21,144 nt of DNA from a virus, in the IMG/VR virus record IMGVR_UViG_3300017727_000216, positions 1 through 21,144 of that record; one strand, given 5' to 3'. Position 1 is the first letter of the stretch, and every line of letters starts with the position of its first letter. Shown here piece after piece: positions 659 through 20,022 of the stretch. The notes below the pieces were generated by a model. The model saw only the letters and a list, made by a program, of their open reading frames with translations, was not told the DNA's origin and ran no database searches. Position numbers and translations under genes: made by a program.

Positions 659-1406
659 TTACACTATCTACTAATTCTATTAGATCACCGTTGTTTAGAT
701 TTTCTTTTACACCTGCTTTATAATGATTTATATATGGAGCCATAACACTTCTACTAATAGGAGTTTTATGCTTTCCTGGATTTAACTCACAATATCTCAC
801 ATCCACTTGTTTTTTTAATTCAAGTAATGCTTTACCATATACTTCCCCATCGTAAAATCTACGCATACCTTCAGTATCGTCATGGTCGTATATACGAGTG
901 TATATGTCAACAAATTTTTGATAGTGTTCGTGATTTTGATTCAAGATAAAAAATCCTGTTTCACAACTAAAATACCATTTTTCATCTTGTTGATGCCATA
1001 CTCCGAAATGTGCGCTGAGTGTATCGTCTGGACACATTAGTCTTATTAATTGCGCCGGTATGCCAGCCTTAACTATTGTATCTGCATCTAGCCATACAAG
1101 TCGATCACAATCTATCTTATTCATACCGTCAATTATGCTGTATGCTTTTTTTGCAAACTGTTTTGTTCTTGAAGTATCTTTCCATCTACGTTGAAATAGA
1201 TTATATTGTTTTCCTAAATTCCATCCTCTTAGAAATAAACTTTTATTTCCTACTGTAGGTGTAAACCAACCTTCGTTATATAAGTTTAATCTTTGGCTTT
1301 TAAAATTAGTTGCAAAACTGTGTATCATTGCTTTGCCACAGTGATCATAATACTTTTTGTCCATACTAGTAAAGTATTCTATTTTAAAATCGTCAGTCTT
1401 ACCCAT
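633..1406 (-). CDS. DxD glycosyltransferase (GT-A-like), paralog A
   Basis: 257 residues from ATG 1406. I chose this start over TTG 1433 and ATG 1421 because GAAGGA sits 7 bases upstream and the ATG overlaps the previous stop as ATGGGTAA. The protein looks like a GT-A-fold nucleotide-sugar transferase. An N-terminal strand 'FKIEYFTSMD' is followed by the metal-binding 'LVWLDAD' at about residues 103-109 and 'CETGFFILN' further on. The products at 7430-8194 and 1399-2253 share the same order of blocks (W-L-D-A/S-D, then E-T/C-G-F-F/Y), so the three are paralogs. No membrane segment or signal peptide is visible, so it should act in the cytoplasm. The sugar and acceptor cannot be told from the sequence. 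Confidence 0.72.
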   Translation of the reverse strand: MGKTDDFKIEYFTSMDKKYYDHCGKAMIHSFATNFKSQRLNLYNEGWFTPTVGNKSLFLRGWNLGKQYNLFQRRWKDTSRTKQFAKKAYSIIDGMNKIDCDRLVWLDADTIVKAGIPAQLIRLMCPDDTLSAHFGVWHQQDEKWYFSCETGFFILNQNHEHYQKFVDIYTRIYDHDDTEGMRRFYDGEVYGKALLELKKQVDVRYCELNPGKHKTPISRSVMAPYINHYKAGVKENLNNGDLIELVDSVNAETDNSI

Positions 1407-2253
1407 TCCAATATCCTTCATTACGGTTAACAATTAAATCACCAGGCTTGTTACTTTTTTTCTTATCTTTTCTATCACCTTTTAGATGATCAAAATATTT
1501 TCCTAAATCAGTGTTAATTAATGGATGGCCGCCACCTCCTGATCTTGCTGTTTTTAATTTTATCTGTCCAGTATAATCATGCACTGTAGGTGCTTGCTGT
1601 TTATATTTTTTTAACAAATGACCAAATACAAAACTGTCGTGCCATTCAGTTAATCTAAATATACCGTTGTCTGCATCTTCATACATAAGTTCAAATTCTT
1701 TTAAAAATTCTACACATGTTTTCTTACGTAAATTCATACCGTAAAATCCGCACTCAGGCCATGATGCACTGCCTATACCTCTGCCAACATATGTAATCCA
1801 AGTTTTATCAGGTAACAATGCTCGCATGTCATTGTATGTTACTGGAGAGTGTACGTATGTGTCTGCGTCTAACCATACTAGCCAGTCTTGAGTTTTATGT
1901 TGTGCTTCAAACACTGCATATGTCTTGTTTGCAAATCTAACAGCATCCCATTTAAATTCTTTATGTGCATCACCTTTGCGTGTTCTTGCTATTTCTGGTG
2001 GACATTTTCCGTTTGCCTTAGGAACATCACGCCATTTGTTTTTAAATTCAACAAGTTTTGGCAAATGCTCAACTGCGTCTAGTATCTCAATTTGCTTTGG
2101 ATCTGGATTATGAGGCACACAATTTTCTGCATATATTACAAGTCTTATTTGTTTGTCAACATTTTTCGCAAAACTGTTTATTAGCCTCTGGCCGTATTTG
2201 TGCATTCCGTTGTCATTAAATGTACTAACAACTAAAATATCTCTGTGTTTCAT
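1399..2253 (-). CDS. DxD glycosyltransferase (GT-A-like), paralog B
   Basis: 284 residues from ATG 2253. This start is preferred over ATG 2277 because AAAGGA lies 6 bases before it and it overlaps the upstream stop as ATGA. The protein has an N-terminal GT-A-like strand 'DILVVSTFND' and the metal-binding motif 'LVWLDAD' at about residues 125-131. An 'ECGFYGMN' block follows, corresponding to ETGFF in the other two copies. A basic glycine-rich stretch ('ARSGGGGH') lies near the C-terminus. It is likely a soluble glycosyltransferase that adds one residue of a glycan. It is the most diverged of the three copies, with an insertion of about 20 residues before the DxD block. Substrates are unknown. 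Confidence 0.72.
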   Translation of the reverse strand: MKHRDILVVSTFNDNGMHKYGQRLINSFAKNVDKQIRLVIYAENCVPHNPDPKQIEILDAVEHLPKLVEFKNKWRDVPKANGKCPPEIARTRKGDAHKEFKWDAVRFANKTYAVFEAQHKTQDWLVWLDADTYVHSPVTYNDMRALLPDKTWITYVGRGIGSASWPECGFYGMNLRKKTCVEFLKEFELMYEDADNGIFRLTEWHDSFVFGHLLKKYKQQAPTVHDYTGQIKLKTARSGGGGHPLINTDLGKYFDHLKGDRKDKKKSNKPGDLIVNRNEGYWNG

Positions 2254-3155
2254 AGATAATCCTTTATAATATTCCACGCAACACCATTTTGCAAATCATT
2301 AAAACAAAAATGCGACATTGCTATTTTTTCTATCCATGATTGCCGCTCTGGCATAATTGGATTCTCGATTGTATTTAACGAGGAATTGCAAACATCAAAT
2401 GCTTGACTTTTTTGAGGTGTAGGATCAGTAACAAATACAGGTATGCCTTCAATAGCACTTGCTACACCCGGACTACTGTTATAAGTTACAGTTGCCCATG
2501 CATTTGCAAAATCATTTATTATAGAAGCACTTGTACTTACAGTAACATTAGGTTGATTTATTTTTAGATATGTTTTAACTTTTTTATCGCCTGGATGTCC
2601 ACGTACTAATATAGGTCTATCACTGTGTTGTTTAATTTGTTTAATAGTAGTATCTAACCAATCCATTACATCATAGCCCGACATACTCCAGCCGCCATTC
2701 CTTTGCAAGGCAATTAAAATATGTTTACCATTTGCACGCCAAGGTTGTAAATCAAACCCAATATCATTTTTAATTTGTTTCCATCTATTGGGGTCAACAT
2801 TATTAGTAAAATACACACCTGTTGTAGGAAAAACATCGTTCAAACTAAAACGTAAATATGTCTTGGTGTTAGCAGGATCTTTGTATAAAAACAAATTGCT
2901 ATCAATTGCTAGTGTTTGTTTTCCAATACGTTTTTGTTCTTCTATTATCTTTCTACGGAACATTAGGTGCGGTGTACGTCCACTATTAGCATGTACCCAA
3001 CCTTGCATTACAGCCAAGTCACTCGGCTCCCAATCCATTGTACGTATTTGTTTACTGTTATCTGCACCTTTATGAAAATAATCTAATACAAGTTCTTTTT
3101 CTTTATTTGTATTTTTTGCAGGTATTCCAGCATAGTAAACTCTAACTTGTTTCAT
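2250..3155 (-). CDS. KpsS-like capsule-type glycosyltransferase
   Basis: 301 residues from ATG 3155. I chose this start because GGAG lies 8 bases upstream and it gives the 14-base overlap with the previous gene typical of this cluster. The longer frame to 3233 lies wholly inside the neighbour. The C-terminal half has the capsule polysaccharide biosynthesis signature: 'QHSDRPILVRGHPGD' and then 'ATVTYNSSPGVASAIEGIPV', the T-Y-N-S plus G-I-P-V/A pattern of KpsS/KpsC-like GT-B enzymes. Bacterial KpsS and KpsC transfer Kdo from CMP-Kdo. That is suggestive because this operon encodes a CMP-sugar synthetase-like enzyme, but donor use here is inference. No membrane segment is seen. Confidence 0.75.
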   Translation of the reverse strand: MKQVRVYYAGIPAKNTNKEKELVLDYFHKGADNSKQIRTMDWEPSDLAVMQGWVHANSGRTPHLMFRRKIIEEQKRIGKQTLAIDSNLFLYKDPANTKTYLRFSLNDVFPTTGVYFTNNVDPNRWKQIKNDIGFDLQPWRANGKHILIALQRNGGWSMSGYDVMDWLDTTIKQIKQHSDRPILVRGHPGDKKVKTYLKINQPNVTVSTSASIINDFANAWATVTYNSSPGVASAIEGIPVFVTDPTPQKSQAFDVCNSSLNTIENPIMPERQSWIEKIAMSHFCFNDLQNGVAWNIIKDYL

Positions 3156-3927
3156 TAATAATTCTCCAAGCAGTTCCGTTGCGTAGTTCTTCAGTGTGAA
3201 ATTGTCCGTAAGCAATAGACGATGCCCATTCATATCTTTTTCTATAAGGAATCTCTGTAGGATTTTCTAGCAAACTTAAATCTTTATCGCAAACAGGATC
3301 TGCTGCTGTTGGTGCTAATGTAAATGCAGGAATACCGTACATCACTGCCTCAACAGCAGCAATACTTTGATATGTAACAACTGCAAAAGTATTTTGTAGA
3401 TCGTGATATATTGTATTAGATAGTCTTGTCCTGCGTGTTTCTTTATCTCGTATTTTGATAGGACGATCTGTATGTTTTCTTATTTCAGCAATAGTTTCTT
3501 TACGCCATTTTTTTAAATCTATGTCGTAATATTTACAAGGTTTTTCTGAAGGCGTAACTAACAAAATATTTTCGTTTGTATGATGTTTGTATTGATGTAT
3601 ACGCATTAATTGTCTACGTAGTCTGTCATCTCTAACTTGGAGAATATCAGTATGTTGTAGTCCATTTTTTACAATGCGATGCCAGTATTTCCAACCTTTA
3701 GGATTTGACGGTTGTCTGTAATTTCCAAAATACCCACTGTCCATATAATAATAATCTCTATTATTTTCAATACAGTACTTTATAATATTTCTTTTACCTA
3801 ATCCTCTTATTAATATAGGCTCATCAGAATCTTTCCAATTGTATGAATAGTCATAGATGGGCAATTCTGCACCTCGAGCAAATGCATTTACATAATCGTC
3901 TCTCAAGTCTTTACTTAAACATATCAT
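3142..3927 (-). CDS. KpsS-like capsule-type glycosyltransferase, short copy
   Basis: 261 residues from ATG 3927, inside the last codons of the upstream GT8-like gene (17-base overlap); the longer frame to 4038 lies entirely within that gene. The protein has 'YYYMDSGYFGNYR' in the N-terminal half, then 'EIRKHTDRPIKIRDKE' and 'AVVTYQSIAAVEAVMYGIPAF'. The last block is the T-Y-x-S...G-I-P pattern of the KpsS/KpsC-like family. It differs from its two paralogs at the usual R-P/G-H-P position, which reads 'IRDKE', so an important histidine of that motif seems to be lost. It may have different specificity or reduced activity. It ends 'NGTAWRIINE', very like 'NGVAWNIIKD' at the end of the next gene, which supports common descent. 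Confidence 0.7.
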   Translation of the reverse strand: MICLSKDLRDDYVNAFARGAELPIYDYSYNWKDSDEPILIRGLGKRNIIKYCIENNRDYYYMDSGYFGNYRQPSNPKGWKYWHRIVKNGLQHTDILQVRDDRLRRQLMRIHQYKHHTNENILLVTPSEKPCKYYDIDLKKWRKETIAEIRKHTDRPIKIRDKETRRTRLSNTIYHDLQNTFAVVTYQSIAAVEAVMYGIPAFTLAPTAADPVCDKDLSLLENPTEIPYRKRYEWASSIAYGQFHTEELRNGTAWRIINETS

Positions 3928-4582
3928 AAAGTTCTTGTTTCCATAAATCTGCAAATTTACAATCTCTGTAATTTTCAAACCATGGTCCGCCTTCTGTATA
4001 GTGAATAAGTTTAGGTTTTTCGATATCATCGTATACACCTACTAGATAGTTCCATGTATGATCTAGTTCACCTATTTCACTGTCAGGTAACCAACTAAAT
4101 CTATGTAAGAATGCTCCTGTTTTATCTAAGTCATTTACAAACTCTTTGTTAACTACTTTATTAGCAGGGTGTCCGCAATTAAACAATACAACGCTTGACC
4201 AATTCTTGCGTGGATAGATAGTTTGTTTTTGTCCATCCATCTTAAATTGTTCTTTGACTTTGTAATCATGTTGCACACACATTACTGCATATTTGTCATC
4301 TGCTTGATCAAACAATTCTTTAATGTCTGTAGTAAGAATCATATCACAGTCCATAAACAATGCCCAACCTTCAAAGTCCGCAAGTTCTGGCACAAGAAAA
4401 CGTGTAAAAGTAAATTCAGTACTTGCAAGTTTATCCACAGGACGAGTATACCAACCTGCGTCACGCAAGTCTTTTTGTATCAAGGGACGTACATCTGCAT
4501 CCGGTTGCTTTGATAAAATACTGTGCTTACATACTTGATAAGCAATGTCTTCTCGTGGATCATATCCTACAAATACTTTCAT
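3911..4582 (-). CDS. GT8-like glycosyltransferase
   Basis: 223 residues. It starts 'MKVFVGYDPREDIAYQVC', a typical N-terminal strand and helix of glycosyltransferase family 8. The metal-binding DxD is in 'FMDCDMI' (D78, D80), and the C-terminal 'IHYTEGGPWF' (H194) matches the HxxxGxxxPW motif of the family, which completes metal and diphosphate binding. Family 8 enzymes are retaining transferases that use UDP-glucose, UDP-galactose and related donors. Its ATG overlaps the upstream stop by one base (TAATG). The protein is short for the family but carries all key motifs, so it is probably active. The acceptor is unknown; the neighbours suggest it adds a hexose to the glycan made by this operon. 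Confidence 0.82.
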   Translation of the reverse strand: MKVFVGYDPREDIAYQVCKHSILSKQPDADVRPLIQKDLRDAGWYTRPVDKLASTEFTFTRFLVPELADFEGWALFMDCDMILTTDIKELFDQADDKYAVMCVQHDYKVKEQFKMDGQKQTIYPRKNWSSVVLFNCGHPANKVVNKEFVNDLDKTGAFLHRFSWLPDSEIGELDHTWNYLVGVYDDIEKPKLIHYTEGGPWFENYRDCKFADLWKQELYDMFK

Positions 4583-5364
4583 TATCGTCTCTCTATATCA
4601 TCTTCTTCGCATTTATCACCATATTGTATTTCAATAATATGCGCAGGTGTTTCTCCTGTGTTTGTAGTTTTGTGCCATGTGTCTACAGGTATTACATGTG
4701 TGTTATGTTCGTACAATTCTATGCTGGATTTAAATCCGTCAACAAATTCCATATCAATTTCAATTTGTCCAGACAATACATACCAATGTTCATCTCTGTA
4801 TGCGTGTTTTTGATCACTTAGACTTTTACCTGGATATATAACAAGTTCTTTTACCTTTGTAGGTTCAACAGGTTGCTTGTCATCTAACACACGCCAGTAA
4901 CCCCAGTCACGTTCTGTCTTTTGTGTTTTCCATTCATCAAGTATCCAACTGCTTGAATTCTTTTTATCATCGCCGCCGATGCCAAACAGAAAAGATATTT
5001 TACCTTCTTCAATTAATTCTTTGGCATACTCGACTTCAGGAGTTGTACCTTTTTGACGATCGCCGCCATTAGCAAAAATTATCTGAGAGTTTGGAAAATT
5101 AGACATCACTTGTCTAATTGCACCTACCGCAGTATTATCTGTGTCATCAAATTCAACAACTTCGTCAACACAACTTAATTCTTTAATAATTGCAATGCGT
5201 TCGTCATAGGGCATAAATGGTCTGCCTTTTTTGCGTGTAAGCCATTCGTCACTGTTAACACCTACAACAAGTTTATTACCTGCTTCTTTTGCTGCTTTAA
5301 AATACGCAATGTGTCCGCTGTGCAGTGGATCGAATCCACCTGTTACTAATACAATTTTTTCCAT
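4582..5364 (-). CDS. Cytidylyltransferase-cupin fusion, sugar activation
   Basis: 260 residues in two domains. Residues 1-145 are a cytidylyltransferase-like nucleotidyltransferase: 'VTGGFDPLHSGH' contains the HxGH motif (15-18) that binds the nucleotide phosphates, and 'NSDEWLTRKKGRPFMPYDER' (37-56) is the usual second block. Residues about 152-260 match the type II mannose-6-phosphate isomerase cupin: 'YWRVL', 'DEHWYVLSG', 'VIPVDTWHK', 'EIQYGD'. The cupin keeps H187, E192, H193 and H231, but the second histidine usual in that motif is A/Y here (188-189). The first domain would couple a sugar or polyol phosphate to a nucleotide; the second could isomerise mannose-6-phosphate, which fits with the GDP-mannose dehydratase nearby. 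A late box (CATAAATA) lies just 5' of the ATG. Domain calls are firm; the reactions are inferred. Confidence 0.8.
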   Translation of the reverse strand: MEKIVLVTGGFDPLHSGHIAYFKAAKEAGNKLVVGVNSDEWLTRKKGRPFMPYDERIAIIKELSCVDEVVEFDDTDNTAVGAIRQVMSNFPNSQIIFANGGDRQKGTTPEVEYAKELIEEGKISFLFGIGGDDKKNSSSWILDEWKTQKTERDWGYWRVLDDKQPVEPTKVKELVIYPGKSLSDQKHAYRDEHWYVLSGQIEIDMEFVDGFKSSIELYEHNTHVIPVDTWHKTTNTGETPAHIIEIQYGDKCEEDDIERR

Positions 5365-5368
5365 ACTG

Positions 5369-5376
5369 TATTTATG
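5369..5376 (-). promoter_or_regulatory. Possible late promoter box CATAAATA
   Basis: CATAAATA on the minus strand matches the T4 late consensus TATAAATA at 7 of 8 positions. It lies in the only true gap within the minus-strand glycan operon (5365-5383), four bases before the ATG of the cytidylyltransferase-cupin gene. In T4 the transcript begins about 5-6 bases after the box, so the mRNA would be leaderless or nearly so. It may instead be a chance match. Confidence 0.4.
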
Positions 5377-5383
5377 TGCGTAC

Positions 5384-6145
5384 TTAATTACGCCTGTTGT
5401 TTTTGTTTAAATGGTTATTAATTTGAGGATGTGTCATGTTAAACTTTTCTTTAAATCTACTAAAGTATTCTCTTTTATTTGCTCGCCAATATTCTTTTTG
5501 AGTATGTTCGCCTTTATTTTCCCTAAACGTACTATTTCTATACCAATCAATACTCAACATAGGTGTAGTAAATTCGTTCCAACCTGATGTTATGTTATAC
5601 ATACGCATATCTTCTGTTGCGCCTTGACCGTGATGATATGCTAAATCATACCAGCCGTGCTTTTGGTTACGTAATTCTTTTATATATTCTGTTTTCCATA
5701 TAGTAAAAATAGGTTGCGCATACATAGGATTTTTTACAAAGGTTGTTACATCTATTTGGTCAGGTATATTCTTTTCTATCCATCCGTCTACATTTTTTAT
5801 ATTACTGTAAATAGCACTCCATTTTTGATCCTGTAATGCTCCTACTGTTTCTATAATTTTTTTGTTGTAGTCTTGTTGAAGTAAAATAGCACTAGTTGTA
5901 ATAGTAGCAAAATACTTAGAATCTAAATTTATTTCTATATCGTATAAATGCCTGTAAGCGCCACTTACTTTTACATTGTTAGGTAATTGAATTTTAGTGT
6001 TAGCATGTGAAGGCTCTTTATCAGATCCATTGTCTAATATAAAAATATTATCTGCAGACATTGAATCTAACAACGTATTATAAATCTTGTCTGTATGAGC
6101 AGACATGTTATAGTTTAGTATATAAGTGTTAAAAGAGTCCGACAT
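5384..6145 (-). CDS. GT2-like protein lacking a clear DxD
   Basis: 253 residues. The N-terminus 'FNTYILNYNMSAHTDKIYNTLLDSM...NIFILDNGSD' fits the first Rossmann half of family 2 glycosyltransferases, including the donor-base aspartate in 'LDNGSD'. Where the family has its metal-binding D-x-D (usually after a hydrophobic strand), this protein reads 'YFATITTSAILLQQD', with no acidic pair. The rest ('YAQPIFTIWKTEYI', 'GQGATEDMRMYNI') could still contribute an acidic base at E/D. It overlaps the upstream gene by 17 bases and has no visible ribosome site, so translation is probably coupled. It may be a metal-independent transferase, a binding subunit, or inactive. I am fairly sure of the fold, not of activity. 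Confidence 0.6.
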   Translation of the reverse strand: MSDSFNTYILNYNMSAHTDKIYNTLLDSMSADNIFILDNGSDKEPSHANTKIQLPNNVKVSGAYRHLYDIEINLDSKYFATITTSAILLQQDYNKKIIETVGALQDQKWSAIYSNIKNVDGWIEKNIPDQIDVTTFVKNPMYAQPIFTIWKTEYIKELRNQKHGWYDLAYHHGQGATEDMRMYNITSGWNEFTTPMLSIDWYRNSTFRENKGEHTQKEYWRANKREYFSRFKEKFNMTHPQINNHLNKNNRRN

Positions 6146-7433
6146 TATTCAACACGTCAAAAGGATCAGCGCCAAATGTTGCTTCAAATTTGACAAGCAT
6201 TTCTTTTTTTAGTGCTTCCTTTGCATGTTCAAATACCAGTGGCCATTTTTCTGCTGGTATACAAACTAACCCATCTGGGTCTCCAAATATCATATCATTG
6301 TTGCGCACAGTTACACCGTTTATTTCAACTGGCATATTCATATCTTCTAGCGTACCTTCATAACGTATATCATCGGGCATTCTGGTATGTGCAAATACAG
6401 GCAATCCTATTTCTGTTACTCTATCTACATCTCTAGTTGGACCATCAACTACAACACCAACTGCACCTGCTCTGTAAGCAAAGTGTGCATTAAGGTCTCC
6501 GAAATACGCTTTGTCTTTTACATCATTGCTTACAATAATTACATCACCCGGTGCTACAAATTCATAACTACCTAACGCATCAAAGATACCTTCCCAATGT
6601 GGCAGTGCTGGATCTTTTTGTTCTTCAGGTAATTCTTTTAGTTTTAGTGTTTTTGCAAAACCTAAAAAAGTTCCGTTGTTCATAGATTTTATTTCACTAC
6701 TTAAAAAATGTTCAATACCGTTTTCTTTACATATATCACTTAGTAACGGACTGCTAATACTTTTACTAAGCATCTTAAGTTGCTGTACTTTTTTAGCACG
6801 TTGTCCTGCGCATATATCTTTTGCAAAGTCTAAATCTTCTTGGTTATTAATGTCTACTAACTGTAATGGAGTTACTGGCCATAATATTGCATCTTTGGTG
6901 TATCTTTTCGTAACAGGTTGCTTATTGGTCTTTACTGCATAAAAACTCATTGCTTCAATTGTATGTACAGGCAAGTCAACACTGTTAGGAATAGTATCAC
7001 CGTATTCTGGTTGTCCGTTTTTCCATAAGTATAACTTTTGTTCTGATACAGCAACTAAACTAGTCTTGCTGCTTTTCTTTAGTTCTGCTAGAGCAGGATC
7101 GATTACAGTCCTGTCTATAAACGGTGCAGTACATAACACCTGCACAACTATATCTGCTTCTGCAATATTAGATTCATTAGCAAACATGCCGTGTCCGTCT
7201 GTTGCGTTAGTTGCTAAACTAGGATCTCTATAGTGATGGTGTATGGGCAAATCTCGTGTTAAGTTATGTAAACTCTCACTTTCACTATCTAACCAAACTT
7301 CGTCAATTTCTTTGCATTCTAGCAATTGTCGTAATTTACGTTTGAATAGATATTCTCCATCTAATACTTGTAAATTTTTATTTTCAATTCTTTCACTTGT
7401 GCCTTTGGCAGGTACGTATGCTATAGTTTTCAT
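6129..7433 (-). CDS. CMP-sugar synthetase fused to RraA/HMG-aldolase-like domain
   Basis: 434 residues in two domains. Residues 1-210 are a CMP-acylneuraminate/CMP-Kdo synthetase-like cytidylyltransferase: 'YVPAKGTSERIENKNL' (6-21) is the CTP-binding loop, 'VVQVLCTAPFI' follows, and 'LVDINNQEDLDFA' (192-204) is the usual end motif. Residues about 222-434 belong to the RraA-like family: 'GDVIIV', 'GDLNAHFAYRAGAVGVVVDG', 'TRDVDRV', 'LPVFA'. D313 and R334-D335 form the D-x20-R-D pattern that binds metal and substrate in HMG/oxaloacetate aldolases; E. coli RraA, an RNase E inhibitor, lacks it. That points to aldolase or decarboxylase chemistry on a 2-oxo acid. A fused enzyme could make or trim a 2-keto sugar acid and activate it with CTP. 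The ATG overlaps the upstream stop (ATGA) after GAGGA. Confidence 0.82.
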   Translation of the reverse strand: MKTIAYVPAKGTSERIENKNLQVLDGEYLFKRKLRQLLECKEIDEVWLDSESESLHNLTRDLPIHHHYRDPSLATNATDGHGMFANESNIAEADIVVQVLCTAPFIDRTVIDPALAELKKSSKTSLVAVSEQKLYLWKNGQPEYGDTIPNSVDLPVHTIEAMSFYAVKTNKQPVTKRYTKDAILWPVTPLQLVDINNQEDLDFAKDICAGQRAKKVQQLKMLSKSISSPLLSDICKENGIEHFLSSEIKSMNNGTFLGFAKTLKLKELPEEQKDPALPHWEGIFDALGSYEFVAPGDVIIVSNDVKDKAYFGDLNAHFAYRAGAVGVVVDGPTRDVDRVTEIGLPVFAHTRMPDDIRYEGTLEDMNMPVEINGVTVRNNDMIFGDPDGLVCIPAEKWPLVFEHAKEALKKEMLVKFEATFGADPFDVLNNVGLF

Positions 7434-8194
7434 AATGTTTCCTCTATAGTGACAGTATTACCTTTTTCATAATTGCTTTTGTTTGACTTTGTTACCCAAT
7501 GTCTTAGATATTGTTTAAGTTCTGTATGCATAAAGGGAATTATACTATCTACTGCTGTTGCAAGATGTTTTAGTTTAGATCCTAATTTCTCTGCTCCATG
7601 TGTTGCGTTCCACCAAACTCCAGTGTCTAGTCTTCTACTAACTTGTAGTATTTCTAAAGTGTTATGACATTTTTTAAAATAGTCTTTTACAAAGGTAATA
7701 TTTGGATCGTTCATATTCAACATAAAAAATCCAGTTTCTGCTTCTTTGCCTTTTACTTTGCCGCCAGCAGGAATATCAACTGATAATGTATCTTCTGGTA
7801 ACAAGTTTTCAAAAAACTGTAAAGGAATTTGTTTATTTGTAATTACATCACTGTCTAACCAAATAAAAACATCTTGTTCACATTCTTGTAATGCGGCTGT
7901 AATTACATGACCTTTCATCCAACTAAACTTATATCGTGAAAACAAGTCTTTACCATTAGGATCGTGTGGAACATGTGGATAGATTAATTCTAAAAAATCA
8001 TCTAAGTCATTGCGTACTTTTTCAAAATCTTTTACAATCAATCTAGGATCATCAATATCGGGTGTAAAGCCTTCTGCCCACAATTCTATAGAGATGTTGT
8101 CAGGCCAGTATTCTAGGAAACTTGTAATACAGTCTTTTCCTATTTGATTATAATACGGTTCGTGCTGTGATGTTACTACTCTATAAGTTCGCAT
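7430..8194 (-). CDS. DxD glycosyltransferase (GT-A-like), paralog C
   Basis: 254 residues, the first gene of the minus-strand glycan operon. 'MRTYRVVTSQHEPYY' is a GT-A-like first strand, 'FIWLDSD' (110-116) is the metal-binding DxD, and 'ETGFFMLN' (153-160) follows. The block order and spacing match the product at 633-1406 ('LVWLDAD', 'ETGFFILN', 'PEDTLS' versus 'PDDTLS'), so these two are close paralogs at opposite ends of the cassette. AAGGAT lies 6 bases before the ATG, and a perfect late promoter box ends 28 bases upstream. It probably makes a glycosidic bond in the cytoplasm; substrates are unknown. Confidence 0.75.
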   Translation of the reverse strand: MRTYRVVTSQHEPYYNQIGKDCITSFLEYWPDNISIELWAEGFTPDIDDPRLIVKDFEKVRNDLDDFLELIYPHVPHDPNGKDLFSRYKFSWMKGHVITAALQECEQDVFIWLDSDVITNKQIPLQFFENLLPEDTLSVDIPAGGKVKGKEAETGFFMLNMNDPNITFVKDYFKKCHNTLEILQVSRRLDTGVWWNATHGAEKLGSKLKHLATAVDSIIPFMHTELKQYLRHWVTKSNKSNYEKGNTVTIEETL

Positions 8195-8221
8195 GTAGAT
8201 CCTTATTCAATTATATGCGTA

Positions 8222-8229
8222 TATTTATA
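8222..8229 (-). promoter_or_regulatory. T4-type late promoter, minus strand (TATAAATA)
   Basis: A perfect TATAAATA on the minus strand, 28 bases before the first glycosyltransferase gene. A start about 6 bases past the box leaves a leader of roughly 20 bases holding AAGGAT, the normal layout of a T4 late gene. It would drive the operon from 8194 towards base 1. Confidence 0.8.
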
Positions 8230-8230
8230 C

Positions 8231-8238
8231 TATAAATA
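8231..8238 (+). promoter_or_regulatory. T4-type late promoter, plus strand (TATAAATA)
   Basis: A perfect TATAAATA on the plus strand, one base away from its minus-strand twin. The ATG of the GDP-mannose dehydratase gene lies 27 bases after the box, with GGAG at 8257-8260 between them, which fits a short late leader. Confidence 0.82.
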
Positions 8239-8265
8239 CGTGCGTATTTAAATTACGGAGATAAT

Positions 8266-9240
8266 ATGAAAAAACGTGCATTAGTTACAGGCATTACAGG
8301 ACAAGACGGCGCCTATCTTGCAAAACTATTATTAGATAAGAACTACGAAGTTTATGGATTTGCTAGTCGCAGAGTAAACCAAAGTTATTCAAATACTGAT
8401 TACTTAGGTATTACACAGGATATCAATTTTGTACACGGTGACGTAACTGATATAAGCAGTGTTAATCATGCAGTAAAAGTATCAAGGCCACACGAATTAT
8501 ATAACCTAGCAGCAATGAGTTTTGTTGGGCTAAGTTGGCAAGAACCTATTCATACTGCAAATGTAGATGCAATGGGTCCGCTTTATATCTTAGAATCGTT
8601 AAGACATCATTCTCCAGATACAAAATTTTATCAAGCCAGTACTAGTGAAATGTATGGAAATAGTTACGAAGAAAATCATACTCAAAATGAACTAACTCCG
8701 TTACGTCCTAGATCACCATATGGTTTTGCAAAAGTATTTGCACACAATGCTGTTGTCAATTATAGAGAAAGTTACAGTATGTTTGCTACTAGTGGTATTT
8801 TATTTAATCACGAGTCGCCTATTAGAGGTAAAGAATTTGTAACAAGAAAAATTACAGATGGCGTTGCTAGAATTAAAGCAGGACTACAAGATACTATTGA
8901 GTTAGGTAATTTAGATCCACGCAGAGATTGGGGATTTGCAGGCGACTATGTAGAAGCAATGTGGATGATGATGCAAGAAGATAATCCCGACGATTATGTA
9001 ATATCTACTGGAAATACTTACAGCATAAAAGAATTGTGTCATGCTGCATTTAGTGCTGCTGGTATTGATAATTGGGAAAATAAAATTACAACTAATCCTG
9101 CATTTGTAAGACCTGCAGAACTATATTATCTAAAAGGTGATAGCACAAAAGCAAAAGAAAAATTAGGTTGGGAACCTAAAGTTCAATTTGAAGAATTAAT
9201 TAAAATGATGGTTGTAGCAGATATGAAACGCTATAGTTAA
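8266..9240 (+). CDS. gmd: GDP-mannose 4,6-dehydratase
   Basis: 324 residues, the only plus-strand gene in the window. It converts GDP-D-mannose to GDP-4-keto-6-deoxy-D-mannose, the branch point to GDP-fucose, GDP-rhamnose and related sugars. It is an extended short-chain dehydrogenase: 'GITGQDG' (9-15) binds NADP, 'ASTSEMYG' (124-131) holds T126 and E128, and Y152/K156 complete the T-E-Y-K set. 'RRDWGFAGDYVEAMW' is the characteristic substrate-side motif of this family. It is somewhat shorter than bacterial copies (about 340-370). No reductase or epimerase that would finish the sugar is seen in the window, so the host or the part beyond the left edge would have to supply it. It has its own late promoter and ends tail-to-tail with uvsY, overlapping it by three bases. 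Confidence 0.9.
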   Translation: MKKRALVTGITGQDGAYLAKLLLDKNYEVYGFASRRVNQSYSNTDYLGITQDINFVHGDVTDISSVNHAVKVSRPHELYNLAAMSFVGLSWQEPIHTANVDAMGPLYILESLRHHSPDTKFYQASTSEMYGNSYEENHTQNELTPLRPRSPYGFAKVFAHNAVVNYRESYSMFATSGILFNHESPIRGKEFVTRKITDGVARIKAGLQDTIELGNLDPRRDWGFAGDYVEAMWMMMQEDNPDDYVISTGNTYSIKELCHAAFSAAGIDNWENKITTNPAFVRPAELYYLKGDSTKAKEKLGWEPKVQFEELIKMMVVADMKRYS

Positions 9241-11206: not shown

Positions 11207-12214
11207 TTATTGTTCTTTGCGCTGACGAATCATTGCAAGAATGTCTTGCGCTCCGCCTGCTGTTTCTGCTGCTGGTGCTGCTGCTGGTGCTGCTGGTGCA
11301 GGATCTTTCCAGCCTGTGTCTTCCATGCGTGTGTCTGCTACTGGTGCTGCTGGAGCAGTAGCAGGTGCACTTTGACTTGTTGCAGTTGCTTGTGGGCTTG
11401 CCGCTTGTTGCGGATCACCTGTACGTGCTTGCATACCTGCAGGACGGAAGTAATTACTCCAACGTTCTGCGTCATATGCTTCACCGTCTACTGATGCTTC
11501 AAACATTTCAGTAAGAACTTTTACAGCAGTTTCATCTGGCTTCTTTGGAAGGAAGTCAGTTAAGTTAAACAACCCGTTTGTGTTTACAGCATTCATCTCT
11601 GCATCACCTAGCGGACGCTCACGACGTGCCCAATTACTTGCGCCATAGTCAGCGTAGCCACCTTTTGAGCCTTTTGACAAACGAAAGTCTACACCAGCAG
11701 TATAATCTGTTGGTAATTCTTCCATGTCTGGATCAAGCAGTGCTGCTTTGATTAGTTGAAAAATTTGTGGACCAATAATGAATCTACGAATTGGGTTTTC
11801 TGGAGAATCTTCTTTGAGTGGATCTTCAGTAACAAAACCTTGGAACAAATATGAACGCTTTTTCCAATACTTACGACCCATGTCTTCAAGACTTGCGTCT
11901 TTAAACCAACCACGTACTTCTTGTAAGATTGTGCATGATTCGCCATACATTTCCATACACGGAACTTGTACTTGTACTGGACGTGAATCTGTATCACCTT
12001 TTACACCAGCGAATGGAAGTTTGATCATCAAACGTTCTTTCCAAAAGAAAGTGTTTGTATCATCGCCGTCGGGCAAGAAACGTAGCGTTGCTTGCTCGCC
12101 TTCTTTCATATTCCAAAATGGGTAAATTGCGTTGTCGCCGCCGCCAGTGCGATTACCGCCACTGTTCTGTTCTTGTTCTTTGAGTTTTGCTCTAATTTCT
12201 GCTAATGATGCCAT
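11207..12214 (-). CDS. gp32: gp32 single-stranded DNA-binding protein
   Basis: 335 residues from ATG 12214, with AGGAGG seven bases upstream; the longer frame to 12265 starts inside the promoter. gp32 coats single-stranded DNA during replication, recombination and repair. The N-terminus 'LAEIRAKLKEQEQ' is the basic cooperativity helix. The core holds 'YPFWNMKEGEQATLRFLPDGD', typical of T4-like gp32, followed by the aromatic DNA-binding region ('FFWKERLMIKLPFAG', 'GRKYWKKRSYLFQGFV'). The C-terminus is a long A/P-rich linker and ends 'QDILAMIRQRKEQ', as I recall from marine phage homologs. Only two cysteines (in 'VPCMEMYGESC') remain where T4 gp32 has three Cys and a His for zinc, so the zinc site may be lost. 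Confidence 0.92.
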   Translation of the reverse strand: MASLAEIRAKLKEQEQNSGGNRTGGGDNAIYPFWNMKEGEQATLRFLPDGDDTNTFFWKERLMIKLPFAGVKGDTDSRPVQVQVPCMEMYGESCTILQEVRGWFKDASLEDMGRKYWKKRSYLFQGFVTEDPLKEDSPENPIRRFIIGPQIFQLIKAALLDPDMEELPTDYTAGVDFRLSKGSKGGYADYGASNWARRERPLGDAEMNAVNTNGLFNLTDFLPKKPDETAVKVLTEMFEASVDGEAYDAERWSNYFRPAGMQARTGDPQQAASPQATATSQSAPATAPAAPVADTRMEDTGWKDPAPAAPAAAPAAETAGGAQDILAMIRQRKEQ

Positions 12215-12271
12215 AGTTATGCCTCCTGTAATTTGCCTATGTGCTTGTGCCTTTGTGTGCAGCACTATTAC

Positions 12272-12300
12272 ATACTACACGAGTTATTTATCATTGTCAA
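12272..12300 (-). promoter_or_regulatory. gp32: Sigma70-type promoter for the gp32 operon
   Basis: On the minus strand TTGACA (12300-12295) and TAGTAT (12277-12272) are 17 bases apart. The -35 is a perfect match and the -10 matches TATAAT at four of six. Transcription would begin near 12265, leaving a leader of about 50 bases before gp32, and run on through uvsX and uvsY. Confidence 0.72.
12285..12292 (-). promoter_or_regulatory. gp32: Late box GATAAATA within the gp32 promoter spacer
   Basis: GATAAATA on the minus strand sits between the -35 and -10 elements. It matches the late consensus at 7 of 8 and is followed by AAC or similar, as at 14706 and 17528. It would start transcription around 12279 and allow gp32 to be made late as well. 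Confidence 0.45.
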
Positions 12301-12308
12301 GTACTTTT

Positions 12309-12965
12309 TTACAAATTTAGAAATTGTTTATCTTCAAATACTTGTAAAAAGTCTTTCATAAAAAGATCAATGTTTTTAAGGTAAAATAACTTTTCTTCTT
12401 TTGTGTATAATTTTACAAAATTAGATTTTGTTGTATCTACATTAAAATGCGTATGGAAATACGATTGTATATCGTTATACTCAATTACATGATCAAAATT
12501 ATCTCGCAAAAATGTAAATTGTATAAGATTGTTTTTTAATTTTTCTAGTGTTGTTTTGTATTCTTGTCTATATGTAGGAATAGAATTAGGTAGTGTTTTT
12601 TCGTCACTGTGCCATTGCATAGTTTCTAGTGCAAAAATGTAACTAAGTACCCAATCTATTAAATCATTTCTATACAATGCATAACTTACAGTTTTAGGTT
12701 CTCCTATCAAACGCCAAAACCATTTATGATCTAAATACGGATATTGTTTAGAATGAATTTTTAGACTGTAAGGTTTCTTATAGTCAGATACTTGTTTTTG
12801 CATAAATTGGCATTGTAAGTAAGGGTTTTCGCCCCACAAATTTTCAACGTTATGTGCTACCTTAAACACCTCGTCAAAATTGTGTAGATACTTTTGTTGA
12901 GTTAATGCATTAATTGCATGAGTACTGCCTGCACGACCTACTGTGTAACAAATATAATTTTGCAT
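12309..12965 (-). CDS. Sulfotransferase-like protein
   Basis: 218 residues. The N-terminus 'ICYTVGRAGSTHAINAL' (5-21) resembles the phosphosulfate-binding loop of sulfotransferases (usually P-R-S-G-S/T-T/S). 'ALYRNDLIDWVLSYIFA' (96-112) resembles the second PAPS motif, in which R and S bind the 3'-phosphate. The spacing between R99 and S108 is one residue longer than usual. The middle is rich in aromatic and basic residues, and no membrane segment is seen. If correct, it would move sulfate from PAPS to a sugar or other acceptor. It stands apart from the glycan operon and is very AT-rich. There is no ribosome site, but a hairpin ends seven bases before the ATG. It could also be another P-loop protein of unknown role. 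Confidence 0.55.
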   Translation of the reverse strand: MQNYICYTVGRAGSTHAINALTQQKYLHNFDEVFKVAHNVENLWGENPYLQCQFMQKQVSDYKKPYSLKIHSKQYPYLDHKWFWRLIGEPKTVSYALYRNDLIDWVLSYIFALETMQWHSDEKTLPNSIPTYRQEYKTTLEKLKNNLIQFTFLRDNFDHVIEYNDIQSYFHTHFNVDTTKSNFVKLYTKEEKLFYLKNIDLFMKDFLQVFEDKQFLNL

Positions 12966-12972
12966 AATAGTA

Positions 12973-13005
12973 GTTAGCGGAAATATTTAATCCGCTAACT
13001 TTTTT
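12973..13005 (+). terminator. Plus-strand intrinsic terminator between minus-strand genes
   Basis: GTTAGCGGA, a nine-base loop and TCCGCTAAC form a perfect 9-bp stem followed by TTTTTT on the plus strand. Both flanking genes are on the minus strand, so as a terminator it would stop antisense transcription. Read on the minus strand there is no T-run; the hairpin would then sit at the end of the 563-residue gene and just before the sulfotransferase-like ATG, where it could affect translation or mRNA decay. Confidence 0.6.
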
Positions 13006-13008
13006 AGA

Positions 13009-14700
13009 TTAAAGGCCTGCTAGTGCCTTAATCATATCAGTTTCTGGATATCTAGTGTTTGCTAAATCTTCTTGCTGACGCTGAGATACCATTGATTCTA
13101 CTTTTTGTATAAATTTAGCAGCCGGTTCAACGTATCGATCTCCGTAGTCTTTTTCTACCATAGTAAGCACTGCTGTTTCGCCTTTTGGGAAAGTTCCGTT
13201 TTCTCTATCAAAGTAAGATAGTATAAACTCTCCAATTGGTGTTTTTTGTTTTTCAAGTGTGATTTCGTCGCCGGATGGACCTTTGACTTTGTCGCCTTTT
13301 TTCTTACCGTTCATTTTAGCCTGGCGAACTGCGTGTGCAAATGCATTGCCTTCTTCTTGGGTATCGCACTCACAAGGTGAGCAGTTGCAATCATCGCAGT
13401 CTTTGCCTTCTGCAAACTGACCCATCATAGTGTTAAATGCTGATTCTAGTTCTATGTCTTCTTTAGTTTTTTTATTTTTTTCTGCTTTGCTATACTTGTC
13501 TTTTAGTGCGCCTAGTTCTTGTTGACTTGCGCCATCGCGGCCTGCTTGTGCTGCTTTGACCATGTATTCTTTACCGTGCTTCTTAACACCAGTATGGTAC
13601 TGTAAACCTGACTCATCTACCGACTTGTCTTTTTTCGCCCGTTCCTTTGCCTCTGCATCTGCTTTTGCATTGCCTGCTTTTTTCATTGCTTCAATGCCTT
13701 TGCTTGCTTCGTCAATTAAATCTTCTGGACCTAGTTCTGTTGCTTTTGATCCTTCACCTATTAAGTTATAGATATATGGAAACACATCTGCAATATCTTC
13801 TTTAAATTGCTTTACAGTTAATTGATCAATCCATGCTTCTTCTACATCTACAGGTACATCTTCTTTCAATGGTGCAGACCAACCATCTATAGTTTCTGCA
13901 TAGTAGTTAGGTTTTTGTAAGTTGGAAATTTCTTTGCGTACTTCTTTTACTCTTGTTTCAACAACGCCCATGTATCCTTGTAATGCTTCTGCCATTACAC
14001 TTTTACGATTCATGTAAGTTTTAAATTTACCTAAACTAGAAAGTTCTTCGCTAAGTCCTGTAATATACTTTCCAAAATCATCGTAAGCATGACCACCTTC
14101 ACTAACATGTAAAGCAAGTGCTCTTGCACCTTGTAAGTGTTTCACAGGATACTTAAATTTTTCACCTTCTGGTGATTCAATAAAAATTGATCCAATATTT
14201 TTAAGTCTACTTTCACCTTCACCAATTGGTGCTGTATGTCGGATAGCAACTCTTGCATTTCCTACTCTTTGATAACTTGTTTTATTTGTACCATACATTT
14301 TTGATTCAGCCATTTGTGTTTCTCCGCGAGCGTTAGCCATATACTCGTAATCTTTTTTGCTTAAATTTGATTTATTAATATCTCTAACATCAAACTTCAT
14401 CATACGTTTCTTTGCAAACTGTCTAATTTCTCTTAAAAATCCGTACCAGTTATCTTGAACTTCTTCTGATTCATTACCTACAATGTCTCTGCCTACAATA
14501 ACCGTTACACCATTTTCTTCGTCTAGACCTATACTAACTTTGCCTAACTGCATACCTTGCGTGTTATAAGTAAAGTCATAAAATCTTGCTTCTTCTGGCA
14601 TGTTTGTAACTTTGCCATTTTCGTCGCCAATAGTGACACTTGGAAAGCGTCCTCTAATTTTGTCAAATAAATCACTGGCAATAGTTTTAATGTTTTTCAT
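13009..14700 (-). CDS. Unassigned large protein with cysteine cluster
   Basis: 563 residues, directly downstream of gp17. I do not recognise a named family, though the N-terminal section ('WYGFLREIRQFAKKRMMKFDVRDINKSNL') recalls proteins annotated as virion or hypothetical proteins in marine T4-like phages. The N-terminal half (1-220) alternates strands and helices; 225-270 is helical and charged; 300-420 is low-complexity and rich in K/E/A, with likely coiled-coil parts. Residues about 435-450 hold a C-x2-C-x-C-x2-C-x-C cluster ('DCDDCNCSPCEC'), a probable metal site. No enzyme motif is seen. It has its own late-type box immediately before the ATG but no ribosome site. Position and late box suggest a structural or assembly role. 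Confidence 0.7.
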   Translation of the reverse strand: MKNIKTIASDLFDKIRGRFPSVTIGDENGKVTNMPEEARFYDFTYNTQGMQLGKVSIGLDEENGVTVIVGRDIVGNESEEVQDNWYGFLREIRQFAKKRMMKFDVRDINKSNLSKKDYEYMANARGETQMAESKMYGTNKTSYQRVGNARVAIRHTAPIGEGESRLKNIGSIFIESPEGEKFKYPVKHLQGARALALHVSEGGHAYDDFGKYITGLSEELSSLGKFKTYMNRKSVMAEALQGYMGVVETRVKEVRKEISNLQKPNYYAETIDGWSAPLKEDVPVDVEEAWIDQLTVKQFKEDIADVFPYIYNLIGEGSKATELGPEDLIDEASKGIEAMKKAGNAKADAEAKERAKKDKSVDESGLQYHTGVKKHGKEYMVKAAQAGRDGASQQELGALKDKYSKAEKNKKTKEDIELESAFNTMMGQFAEGKDCDDCNCSPCECDTQEEGNAFAHAVRQAKMNGKKKGDKVKGPSGDEITLEKQKTPIGEFILSYFDRENGTFPKGETAVLTMVEKDYGDRYVEPAAKFIQKVESMVSQRQQEDLANTRYPETDMIKALAGL

Positions 14701-18059: not shown

Positions 18060-18067
18060 TATTTATC
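18060..18067 (-). promoter_or_regulatory. Late promoter box GATAAATA
   Basis: GATAAATA on the minus strand, formed across the stop of gp4 (GGATAA). It lies 26 bases before the ATG of the probable gp16 gene, giving a leader of about 20 bases. Match 7 of 8 to the T4 late consensus, the same variant as at 14706 and 17528. Confidence 0.58.
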
Positions 18068-18497
18068 CTTTACCATTATGGAATATGTCATTTTCAGTAA
18101 CTACTCTAAATGTAATATTATTCTGCCTACAATATGCTTGCGCTGCTTCCCATTTTGCAGCGTTCAATATAGCATGAGCAGCATTACGCTTATTTTTTTT
18201 GGCTTCTTGTAAACTTCTTTGAGCAGCGGGTTTTACTTCTATTAATTCTGTTTTTTGTTTTCCATTTGCGTCAACATAACTAATTAGAAAATCAGGAACA
18301 TACACTGTGTACTTTCCAGTAAAAGGATTTCTGTATGGTATTTTTATGCCTTCGCTTATCCACTTTACAATCGACGGATGTTCGTCGCAGAATTTCATAA
18401 ATGTAAATTCCCAACTAGATCTATAAATAGGTTCTCTATTTCCTAAGTATTTGTCTTTATTTTTAACAACAAATCTGCCTTGAGCATATTTAGGCAT
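18063..18497 (-). CDS. gp4: gp4 head-completion nuclease-fold protein
   Basis: 144 residues. T4 gp4 (gp50/65) is needed to finish filled heads before tails join. The fold is TnsA/PD-(D/E)xK: 'EPIYRSSWEFTFMKFC' holds the first glutamate, 'VKWISEGIKIPYRNPFTG' the usual linker, 'VYVPDFLI' the aspartate and 'TELIEVKPAAQ' the E-x-K. T4 gp4 has the same order and length (about 150). All nuclease residues are present. Its ATG overlaps the peptidase stop by eight bases (ATGCCTAA). It sits between tail/peptidase genes and gp16, consistent with a late head gene. Confidence 0.88.
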   Translation of the reverse strand: MPKYAQGRFVVKNKDKYLGNREPIYRSSWEFTFMKFCDEHPSIVKWISEGIKIPYRNPFTGKYTVYVPDFLISYVDANGKQKTELIEVKPAAQRSLQEAKKNKRNAAHAILNAAKWEAAQAYCRQNNITFRVVTENDIFHNGKG

Positions 18498-20022
18498 TTC
18501 TAATGCGACCTTGAATAGGATTGTTAAATGGCTGATACAAGTATCTATCTGGGCCGCCTTGTAAACTAGAATCGTCTGAGTAATCAGTGCCAGTACCTGT
18601 ACCTACATCTAAAGATCCTGATTGAGCATTTGCAATGACCCAATTTTTTAAATCTGCAGGTGTTGCATGTGGATTAATTTGTAAGTATTGAGCAAGGACA
18701 CCGCACACTTGCGGAGATGCCATACTAGTTCCAGAAATGCGTGAAATTTTATAATTAGAATTTGTAGGATATGTACTATCGTAAAAAGATCCATAGCCTG
18801 CTGTATTAGTTGCCGCTGTAATCTGTGATCCTGGAGCACATACATCTATCCTAGGTCCTTTTTCACTACTGTTAGCAATAGGTTCAACGCCAGCAACTGT
18901 ATTAGTGGCGTTTATATTTGCTACCATTATCATTCCGTCAGCATACGGAGAGCCTGGACGATTATAGAAAATAGGAGTTCCTGCAGAAACTGAGGCCCAA
19001 GATGTATCTAATGTCATACTATTGTCATAATCTAAGCCGCCTGCTACGTCTAATTTATGATAGTAATTTCCTGCTGCTCTAACTACCGTTATACCTGCAT
19101 CGATACAGTCTTCTGCTGCTGCATCATTTACGGCATCACGTAGACAGCCAACCCTACCTGAACTATTTACTTTCATTCCCCAATTAACTGATAATGATGT
19201 ACCTCTACTTACGCCTCTATATTGTATATCTGTAATTGCTCCGCCTTGAGCAGCATTATATCCTGGATAGTACCATCTATATCCCCAACTTGCATTTACT
19301 ATTGTAGGTCTTCTATATCCTGTGCGTGTAATAGGTTTACTTAAATGCCATAGTCTAATTAAGTCATACATATCATCTTCTGCCATTAGATCATAACGCA
19401 TACTATAAATTCTTGCGTTTTTAGCCCAGCCGTATAATTTGCCTGCAACCGTACTTGCTACATGTGTTCCGTGATTTCCAACATCGCCATAAAATCCAAC
19501 TGGCATAGTACCTGAAACACCTGCTGCCGTATACCAGTCATGTTCAACTAAACGTGTTACACCAAACTTGTCTTCCCATTCTGGATGCCCTGTCATAACT
19601 CCGCTGTCTTGTATAACAACATCAACACCTGTGCCGTCTAAATTGTATGTAAAGCCTTGATTATTGCTAAATGTTTCTTGAGAAGATTCATATGATGTTT
19701 GAATGCATCTTCTTAGTCCCCAATTTACTACGCCAGAATCTTTGTTCGTGCCTCTATAAAATCTTCCTGTTTGAGTACCAAAATCAGTTCTTGCTGATAC
19801 AGGTACAGGTAGTTGAACTGCAACTACTCGTGAATCTTGTCTTATAGTTTCTGCTTCGTCAGCAGATAAGTTATATAATGTACTTCTTAAATTATTAGGA
19901 CGTCTATCCGCTACATCTACTGATCTATCTGGAATATATAAAGAACCGCCGGGTGTTTCCATATCATCTGAAAACTCGTCTACGTCTACACCTTTTTTTA
20001 ATGTTACAAAATAATTTTCCAT
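18490..20022 (-). CDS. Subtilisin-like S8 serine peptidase
   Basis: 510 residues with no signal peptide. The catalytic triad is complete: D139 in 'VVIQDSG', H184 in 'GNHGTHVAS', S433 in 'GTSMASPQVCGV', with the oxyanion asparagine N319 in 'VVRAAGNYY'. Residues 1-75 look like an I9-type pro-domain ('FVTLKKGVDVDEF', 'LYNLSADEAETIRQDSRVVAVQ'), so the enzyme is probably made inactive and matures by self-cleavage. AGGA, overlapping the fibre gene stop, lies seven bases before the ATG. It follows a tail-fibre-like gene and precedes gp4, so it may be a virion part that cuts host surface protein or matures a phage protein. Its target is not known. Confidence 0.88.
   Translation of the reverse strand: MENYFVTLKKGVDVDEFSDDMETPGGSLYIPDRSVDVADRRPNNLRSTLYNLSADEAETIRQDSRVVAVQLPVPVSARTDFGTQTGRFYRGTNKDSGVVNWGLRRCIQTSYESSQETFSNNQGFTYNLDGTGVDVVIQDSGVMTGHPEWEDKFGVTRLVEHDWYTAAGVSGTMPVGFYGDVGNHGTHVASTVAGKLYGWAKNARIYSMRYDLMAEDDMYDLIRLWHLSKPITRTGYRRPTIVNASWGYRWYYPGYNAAQGGAITDIQYRGVSRGTSLSVNWGMKVNSSGRVGCLRDAVNDAAAEDCIDAGITVVRAAGNYYHKLDVAGGLDYDNSMTLDTSWASVSAGTPIFYNRPGSPYADGMIMVANINATNTVAGVEPIANSSEKGPRIDVCAPGSQITAATNTAGYGSFYDSTYPTNSNYKISRISGTSMASPQVCGVLAQYLQINPHATPADLKNWVIANAQSGSLDVGTGTGTDYSDDSSLQGGPDRYLYQPFNNPIQGRIRNA

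Follow-up and report, generated by a model that had tools for sequence, protein, structure and literature searches.

The product of the gene at 12309-12965 of an uncultured T4-like phage is probably a PAPS-dependent sulfotransferase of the Stf0 type, small and divergent, the acceptor of which would most likely be a sugar (of LPS, of a capsule or of a glycan from the phage's own sugar cassette). The window, which is the whole stretch of DNA that was analysed, is a virus record of 21,144 bases, and the gene, its flanks and its motifs are located in Table 1. The initial annotation had described the gene as sulfotransferase-like, and the comparison with profiles of the sulfotransferase families bears this out: the product, P0001, matches the Stf0 family (PF09037) above the controls and keeps residues of the PAPS site, so that kinship to Stf0 is supported at the level of sequence. 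Because the Pfam cut-off is missed, P0001 is called Stf0-like and not a certified member of PF09037. Phage sulfotransferase genes are already known; P0001 is unusually divergent. The named members of the Stf0 group sulfate trehalose and LPS, which gives phage genes of this type a concrete test, namely a sulfated surface sugar. The ORF shows that such genes can escape standard annotation, and the 3'-phosphate motif of Stf0 offers a means of finding more of them.

Table 1. Position of the putative sulfotransferase gene, its flanking elements and the motifs assigned to its product
Feature	Position	Strand	Remarks
563-aa protein, upstream flank	13009..14700	-	No Pfam match; adjoins large terminase
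Hairpin with 10-bp stem between 563-aa gene and ORF	12972..13000	-	-15.4 kcal/mol, z -7
Putative Stf0-like sulfotransferase gene, product P0001, 218 aa	12309..12965	-	ATG start, uninterrupted frame
Candidate P-loop (5'-phosphosulfate-binding loop) GRAGSTH, residues 10-16	12918..12938	-	R11, G13, S14 are invariant columns (11 cellular Stf0 proteins)
E32, candidate general base	12870..12872	-	Aligned with Glu of 1TEX 'GEPQEFF'
K69-I-H71 strand	12753..12761	-	K69 column invariant among 13 viral Stf0-type proteins
Candidate 3'-phosphate-binding strand-turn-helix R99-N-D-L-I-D-W-V-L-S108-Y-I-F-A112-L-E-T-M-Q-W118-H119	12609..12671	-	Stf0 alignment
Y163-N-D, counterpart of family Y-E-D (E to N)	12471..12479	-	Alignment with Stf0-type proteins
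Sigma-70-like promoter TTGACA-17-TAGTAT before gp32	12272..12300	-	-35 box 8 bases beyond ORF stop
gp32-like single-strand DNA-binding protein, downstream flank	11207..12214	-	Ribosome site AGGAGG at 12222-12227

The gene and its surroundings

The window encodes a T4-like large terminase (PF03237/PF17289; 14713-16296) together with a uvsX/RecA-like gene, a subtilase and a gp32-like gene, the last with a score slightly below its Pfam cut-off. In the phage collection, the terminases that rank highest are ~53% identical and come from Pseudomonas phages of 285-288 kb, and the close relatives of the virus that were found are uncultured contigs. A sugar cassette at 2-9240, ~3 kb from the ORF, contains by Pfam a family 8 glycosyltransferase, a GDP-mannose dehydratase and two cytidylyltransferase fusions. 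In one fusion (ORF 6129-7433) a CMP-sugar-type cytidylyltransferase (PF02348) is combined with an RraA-like aldolase domain (PF03737), and in the other (ORF 4582-5364) a cytidylyltransferase-like domain (PF01467) with a cupin of the mannose-6-phosphate isomerase type (PF01050). At 18063-18497 a TnsA-like endonuclease domain (PF08722) adjoins the subtilase gene (18490-20022). No sulfate-activation gene was recognised in a Pfam scan of 20 window proteins, thus the supply of PAPS would fall to the host or to genome regions outside the window.

As first described, the ORF stands alone between core genes (it is the single ORF between the 563-aa gene and the gp32-like gene), is very A+T-rich and has no ribosome site, here taken as a Shine-Dalgarno match of at least 4 bases. 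Its A+T content is 71.7%, and its G+C of 0.283 is the lowest of 24 coding stretches measured (others 0.304-0.449). The third-position G+C (0.211) falls within the range of the other coding stretches (0.172-0.347), so the A+T richness would derive mainly from amino-acid content. A Shine-Dalgarno match is absent in 15 of the 24 stretches, the ORF, uvsX and gp17 among them, a count made on uncurated starts with four of the 24 entries not beginning at a start codon. The recent gain that the initial annotation had argued from these two features can be kept only in part: the short spacer in most relatives favours an accessory gene, but the composition and the missing site do not discriminate and are weak evidence of recent gain, since third-position composition is ordinary and uvsX and gp17 also lack a site.

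The chance that the ORF is not a gene is negligible. The failure to find a close homologue and the lack of a Shine-Dalgarno match would fit such a reading, but the frame holds 218 open codons, for which the probability at the ORF's own base composition is ~3e-9 (0 of 5000 shuffles remained open). It is also on the strand of its neighbours, fits between the hairpin and the gp32 promoter, and its product matches the profile of an enzyme family.

Between the 563-aa gene and gp32 (12221-13008) lies a slot that holds the gene as a single accessory cargo, a view favoured by the shortness of this spacer in most relatives. Across 137 loci, defined as distinct contigs showing both flanks, the spacer measures at most 200 bases in 117, 201-400 in 3 and more than 400 in 17, and because near-identical contigs were left unmerged the 17 long spacers represent fewer events. 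The ORF starts 6 bases after the hairpin. In the five relatives examined (L004, L008, L010, L045 and L046), a similar hairpin is formed by the last codons of the upstream gene and extends across its stop codon. By eye, a similar promoter element occurs in the empty-site relatives examined. The position of the ORF between the 3' hairpin of the upstream gene and the gp32 promoter indicates that it is probably read from transcription starting upstream.

Kinship to Stf0 and the candidate PAPS site

Searches with P0001 alone returned no relative. PF09037 was not listed at E <= 10 and the Pfam gathering cut-off was not reached, the best Pfam match being FlgE_3rd (E 0.24); the best matches in PHROGs (E 0.047) and among PDB sequences (E 0.086) were a family of unknown function and a thioester protein, and NCBIfam gave 0 matches. 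With tblastn, the phages gave 0 matches at E <= 1 and one at E <= 10 (E 9). The plasmids gave one match at E 3, and the whole records of 50 of 80 relatives gave 0 at E <= 10. The best non-self phmmer match among 4984 ORFs of the collected loci (E 0.32) was a chance alignment. Scans based on P0001 picked out 3 viral-contig and 9 genome-contig pattern stretches, with 0 relatives in either. The loop pattern 'hGRAGSTHxhxxh' was found in 16 viral stretches, inspection of which revealed no sulfotransferase, and in 67 stretches from genomes. Of the latter, 18 stayed open for more than 120 residues beyond the motif, and these 18, on inspection, included 0 sulfotransferases; as the stretches inspected yielded no sulfotransferase, the loop does not serve as a signature of the family. 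Another scan, modelled on 'RNDLIDWVLSY', returned 36 stretches, and inspection showed nothing like a sulfotransferase in them.

Sulfotransferases were gathered by Pfam family from whole genomes and compared with P0001 by hhalign, with seven profiles tried in the main comparisons. Against six PF09037 proteins P0001 scored 34.4 over 126 columns (probability 45; 0 of 100 shuffles as high), and against 12 it scored 48.4 over 115 collinear columns (probability 91.7). Controls on the 12-row profile reached at most 21.4 (150 natural ORFs of 160-300 aa) and 26.2 (150 shuffles), with 14.2 for reversed P0001. The addition of 11 viral proteins to these 12 (23 Stf0-type rows) gave 52.5 over 129 columns at a probability of 94, the best of 60 shuffles scoring 19.3. 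In hhalign's own comparison with 11 PF09037 proteins the probability was 80.5 and E 1.3e-5, and this 11-row profile represents the right family because it matches the Stf0 crystal structure 1TEX at E 1.2e-43. The 11 viral Stf0-type proteins alone gave 35.8 over 30 columns, and a four-sequence viral profile (L356, L357, L360 and L368) gave 18.6, which was not significant (best of 60 shuffles 20.1). The PF13469 profile (28 rows) scored 16.3, reached by 4 of 100 shuffles, and the PF00685 profile (24 rows) 15.5, reached by 21 of 100; both families were also absent from the Pfam scan of P0001. A mixed sulfotransferase profile of 60 rows scored 17.1 (reached by 3 of 100 shuffles), and the score of a profile of two phage genes was reached by 37 of 100. 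The PF13469 rows omit L291 and L300, whose match started late in the profile and had no loop, the PF00685 rows omit 6 of 30 loci (L328, L329, L330, L337, L342 and L343), whose match started at least at profile position 42, and alignment A2 omits L319, one of the 12 PF09037 proteins.

Both motifs that had been likened to PAPS-binding motifs are present in P0001, 'VGRAGSTHAIN' at residues 9-19 and 'YRNDLIDWVLSY' at residues 98-109. The resemblance stands, and the 'extra residue' once remarked in the second motif proves to be the Stf0 spacing, one above the classical value and no defect. A passage of PMC10638397 names the Arg and Ser of the 3'-phosphate site as R143 and S152 in Stf0 and R132 and S140 in aryl sulfotransferase IV, spacings of 9 and 8; R99 and S108 of P0001 are 9 apart. 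Likewise, P0001 carries R11 in its loop, as Stf0 has an Arg where, according to a passage of a review (PMC11625862), most sulfotransferases have a Lys.

Invariant columns were counted without P0001 itself. Of the ten columns invariant in 11 cellular Stf0 proteins, P0001 retains six (R11, G13, S14, R99, S108 and A112), with L39, G50 and P52 lost and the fourth, Y204, misaligned (Y163 matches in alignment A5). It retains 10 of the 11 columns invariant, with at most one gap, in 13 viral Stf0-type proteins, among which M1 is a mere start and D101, A112 and W118 were demanded by the scan patterns through which those proteins were recovered, so the free evidence consists of R11, G13, E32 and K69, together with R99 and S108 for most rows. 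The column lost is the Glu of Y-E-D (E205 in A2), which reads N164 in A5. In alignment A1 the cellular columns lost, invariant or at 90%, are L39 (A17), G50 (H28), P52 (F30), G94 (S67), I127 (Y95) and Q137-A138 (W105-V106). The A and W that follow R-x8-S are kept as A112 and W118. A combined motif, composed after P0001 had been seen, matches P0001, 0 of 20000 shuffles and 0 of 2820 ORFs of at least 150 residues from loci fetched for other reasons.

The trehalose 2-sulfotransferase Stf0 (PDB 1TEX, Mycobacterium smegmatis; PF09037) has the P-loop Arg, Gly and Ser in the same order and spacing as P0001, and the two are alike in the Glu at the 'GxPxE' position, the LK strand, and R-x8-S followed by A and W. 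P0001 differs in its length (218 aa versus 287 in the 1TEX chain), in lacking the G and P of 'GxPxE', the Q-A before the Ser and the Glu of Y-E-D, and in falling below Pfam detection. The Glu of 'GEPQEFF' (1TEX chain residue 56, or 36 by the offset of 20 from R143/S152) is what we take to be the proposed general base of Stf0; the literature search found no printed source for this assignment.

Predicted structure and sulfotransferase genes in other viruses

The single-sequence AlphaFold model of P0001 was poor (pLDDT 42.8), and sulfotransferases were absent among the 50 PDB matches listed for it. A model built on viral Stf0-type rows (the 14-row alignment A5, omitting L365, the sequence of which equals L363, and with L369 standing for its seven copies) reached pLDDT 63.8 and pTM 0.58. 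Around the P-loop strand and the strand-turn-helix of the 3'-phosphate site, the ten-residue blocks of residues 1-20 and 91-120 were at 69-82, and the C-terminal end was poor (residues 182-186 and 196-218 below 50). In VIA-align, where a family missing from the results is not evidence of absence, 1TEX_D ranked first (Z 11.1, rmsd 3.7 Å, 183 residues) and shikimate kinase next (10.8, 148 residues), so that P-loop kinases are tied, with shikimate kinases less than 1 Z behind, in a fold that is partly circular. Foldseek ranked the uncharacterised 3fdi_A first and 1TEX_D second with several kinases near the top, and the best BFVD match was an uncharacterized phage protein, with named phage and giant-virus sulfotransferases at ranks 4, 12 and 14. 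The predicted structure is compatible with an Stf0 fold, and because its rows are of the Stf0 type this is compatibility rather than independent proof.

A pattern derived from Stf0 and not from P0001 identified 13 viral loci, 12 of them with an Stf0-type ORF (L362 had none). A second pattern, from the second motif of P0001, identified 24 loci, of which 14 were Stf0-type (seven of the L369 type, L384 and six found before), adding L369 and L384 as two viral Stf0 types; the ten remaining loci, with large phage proteins, were judged false by inspection. PF09037 was listed in 10 of 10 viral proteins scanned (L360, L361 and L365 were not included), nine over the cut-off and L384 below it, and L356, scanned separately, was also over the cut-off. 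By these motifs and profiles, P0001 and 13 further distinct viral genes would be placed in the Stf0 group. The viral genes (L356-L361, L363-L369 and L384) share with P0001 the P-loop (not seen in L359, a truncated sequence), the K and the R-x-D-x6-S-x3-A-x5-W columns, and differ in sequence, with 13-21% identity to P0001. Residues 66-123 of P0001 align by phmmer to L359, a viral PF09037 protein, at 15.3 bits, and L369, above the PF09037 cut-off at 186 aa, is shorter than P0001. The core genes of the window had no match on the fetched stretches of these viral contigs. A viral scan with alignment A3 (two Stf0-family proteins from one genome) gave 267 pattern matches and 0 relatives, and L350 and L355 had no match among the phages at E <= 1.

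The L356 gene adjoins an NAD-sugar epimerase, a DegT/DnrJ aminotransferase and a C-methyltransferase, and the neighbours of L360 are similar by inspection, both genes lying in sugar cassettes. A GDP_Man_Dehyd-type gene lies 3.7 kb from L365 and a cytidylyltransferase-like gene 3.1 kb from L359. No nucleotide-sugar gene was recognised in the inspected stretches of L366, L367, L382 and L384, where most neighbours were without a Pfam scan. Two of the viral proteins (L356:7674-9140 and L368:84-1550) continue after the Stf0-type domain into a second, methyltransferase-like domain of more than 200 residues that has no Pfam match. A second sulfotransferase-like gene stands beside the Stf0-type gene at L359:8737-9543 (PF13469) and L366:7413-8141 (P-loop only, no Pfam match).

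Environmental viruses are reported, in passages of the literature, to carry sulfotransferase genes. Sulfotransferases of the Sulfotransfer_3 type are described in parts of PMC10580990 from OM43 phage genomes and Synechococcus phage S-SRM01, with the comment that their function in phage genomes 'remains unclear'. A literature search of titles and the start of abstracts showed, among the papers listed, none on a phage Stf0 sulfotransferase. Phage proteins of the Sulfotransfer_3 type (from OM43 phages, S-SRM01, L082 and L156) are sulfotransferases or sulfotransferase-like, as P0001 appears to be. P0001 has no PF13469 profile match, and by eye L082 and L156 have the loop P-R-[ST]-G-T-T and an R-to-S spacing shorter than that of P0001. 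Relatives of the virus carry different sulfotransferase-like genes, directly upstream of the terminase gene (L082:1492-2280), upstream of the 563-aa gene (L156:1655-2404), near uvsX (L083:4-564) and elsewhere (L084:1375-2076). A Pfam cut-off is passed by L083 alone (PF17784), the PF13469 matches of L082 and L084 being weak (L082 below the cut-off), and L156 was judged by eye. On the 12-row Stf0 profile these proteins scored 34.2 (L156), 27.5 (L082), 26.1 (L084) and 17.2 (L083). Among the phages L082 had no match at E 0.1 and L083 none at 0.01.

Proposed function and alternative readings

The kinship to the Stf0 family and the retained residues make PAPS-dependent sulfate transfer a likely activity of P0001. 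In the proposed reaction, R11 and the GRAGST loop would hold the 5'-phosphosulfate of PAPS, R99 and S108 would bind its 3'-phosphate, and E32 (or H71) would remove the proton from the acceptor hydroxyl, with sulfate transferred by in-line displacement and PAP left. The acceptor may be a sugar of host LPS or capsule, or the glycan of the phage cassette, and its sulfation could alter surface charge or a receptor. Sulfation of a glycan, perhaps that of the cassette, is plausible by analogy, since family members act on trehalose and (LpsS) on LPS, some viral genes have sugar neighbourhoods and the cassette is 3 kb away. Activity of a Stf0-family member on trehalose is given in a passage of PMC10638397, and a table of PMC12445080 lists LpsS, the LPS sulfotransferase of Sinorhizobium meliloti, as 'Stf0 family' and LPS-modifying. 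LpsS offers a plausible model for a surface acceptor, as a host and not a phage enzyme that is likened to P0001 by family only and not by sequence.

It is unlikely that P0001 is a true Stf0-like sulfotransferase with a different acceptor, such as a small metabolite, a lipid, a nucleotide or a protein. An acceptor determinant was not recognised, the C-terminal end is poorly modelled, and four of the eight inspected viral neighbourhoods lack a recognised nucleotide-sugar gene, but the named members in these literature passages act on trehalose and LPS, and in the other four neighbourhoods (L356, L359, L365 and, by inspection only, L360) nucleotide-sugar or cytidylyltransferase genes lie no more than 4 kb away. 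A sulfotransferase that has decayed or been repurposed and lost activity is very improbable: the open frame, the loop and the Arg and Ser columns of the 3'-phosphate site are all kept, and the viral L369 passes the PF09037 cut-off at an even shorter length, against which stand the shortness of P0001, its missing family columns, Y-N-D in place of Y-E-D, the lack of a ribosome site and the homologues not found.

A further alternative is that P0001 is another P-loop enzyme, kinase-like, resembling sulfotransferases through the common P-loop fold only. The model searches would allow this, with shikimate and adenylate kinases close behind Stf0 in VIA-align (at most 10.8 versus 11.1) and 3fdi_A and several kinases near the top in Foldseek. 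P-loop kinases have the Walker A motif G-x4-G-K-[ST], but its G-K-[ST] is absent from the P0001 loop TVGRAGSTH, and P0001 shares its second motif, R-x-D-x6-S-x3-A-x5-W, with Stf0. Further, a kinase, uvsX and gp17 scored only 13-14 on the 12-row Stf0 profile versus 48 for P0001, and the kinase-like reading is accordingly highly improbable. An Stf0-type sulfotransferase acting on a sugar remains the preferred reading.

The longer spacers of relatives carry other genes, including a 240-aa unknown family (L138, L139 and L154), small pairs, a methyltransferase (PF13578) in L209 and, in L024 and L071, 'GDS'-motif proteins that resemble SGNH hydrolases and have no Pfam match; no detectable homologue of P0001 was present among the slot genes of relatives. 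A tentative and rather doubtful extension is that in the T4-like phages of this clade the slot rotates surface-remodelling genes, with a minimal Stf0-type enzyme here sulfating host LPS or the glycan of the phage's own cassette. If true, sulfation of LPS or glycan would alter receptor charge and could exclude competing phages or hide from defences. Separately, one contig of 33.3 kb (L137), in which 423 residues are identical to the 563-aa protein, ends within that gene, beside the variable slot.
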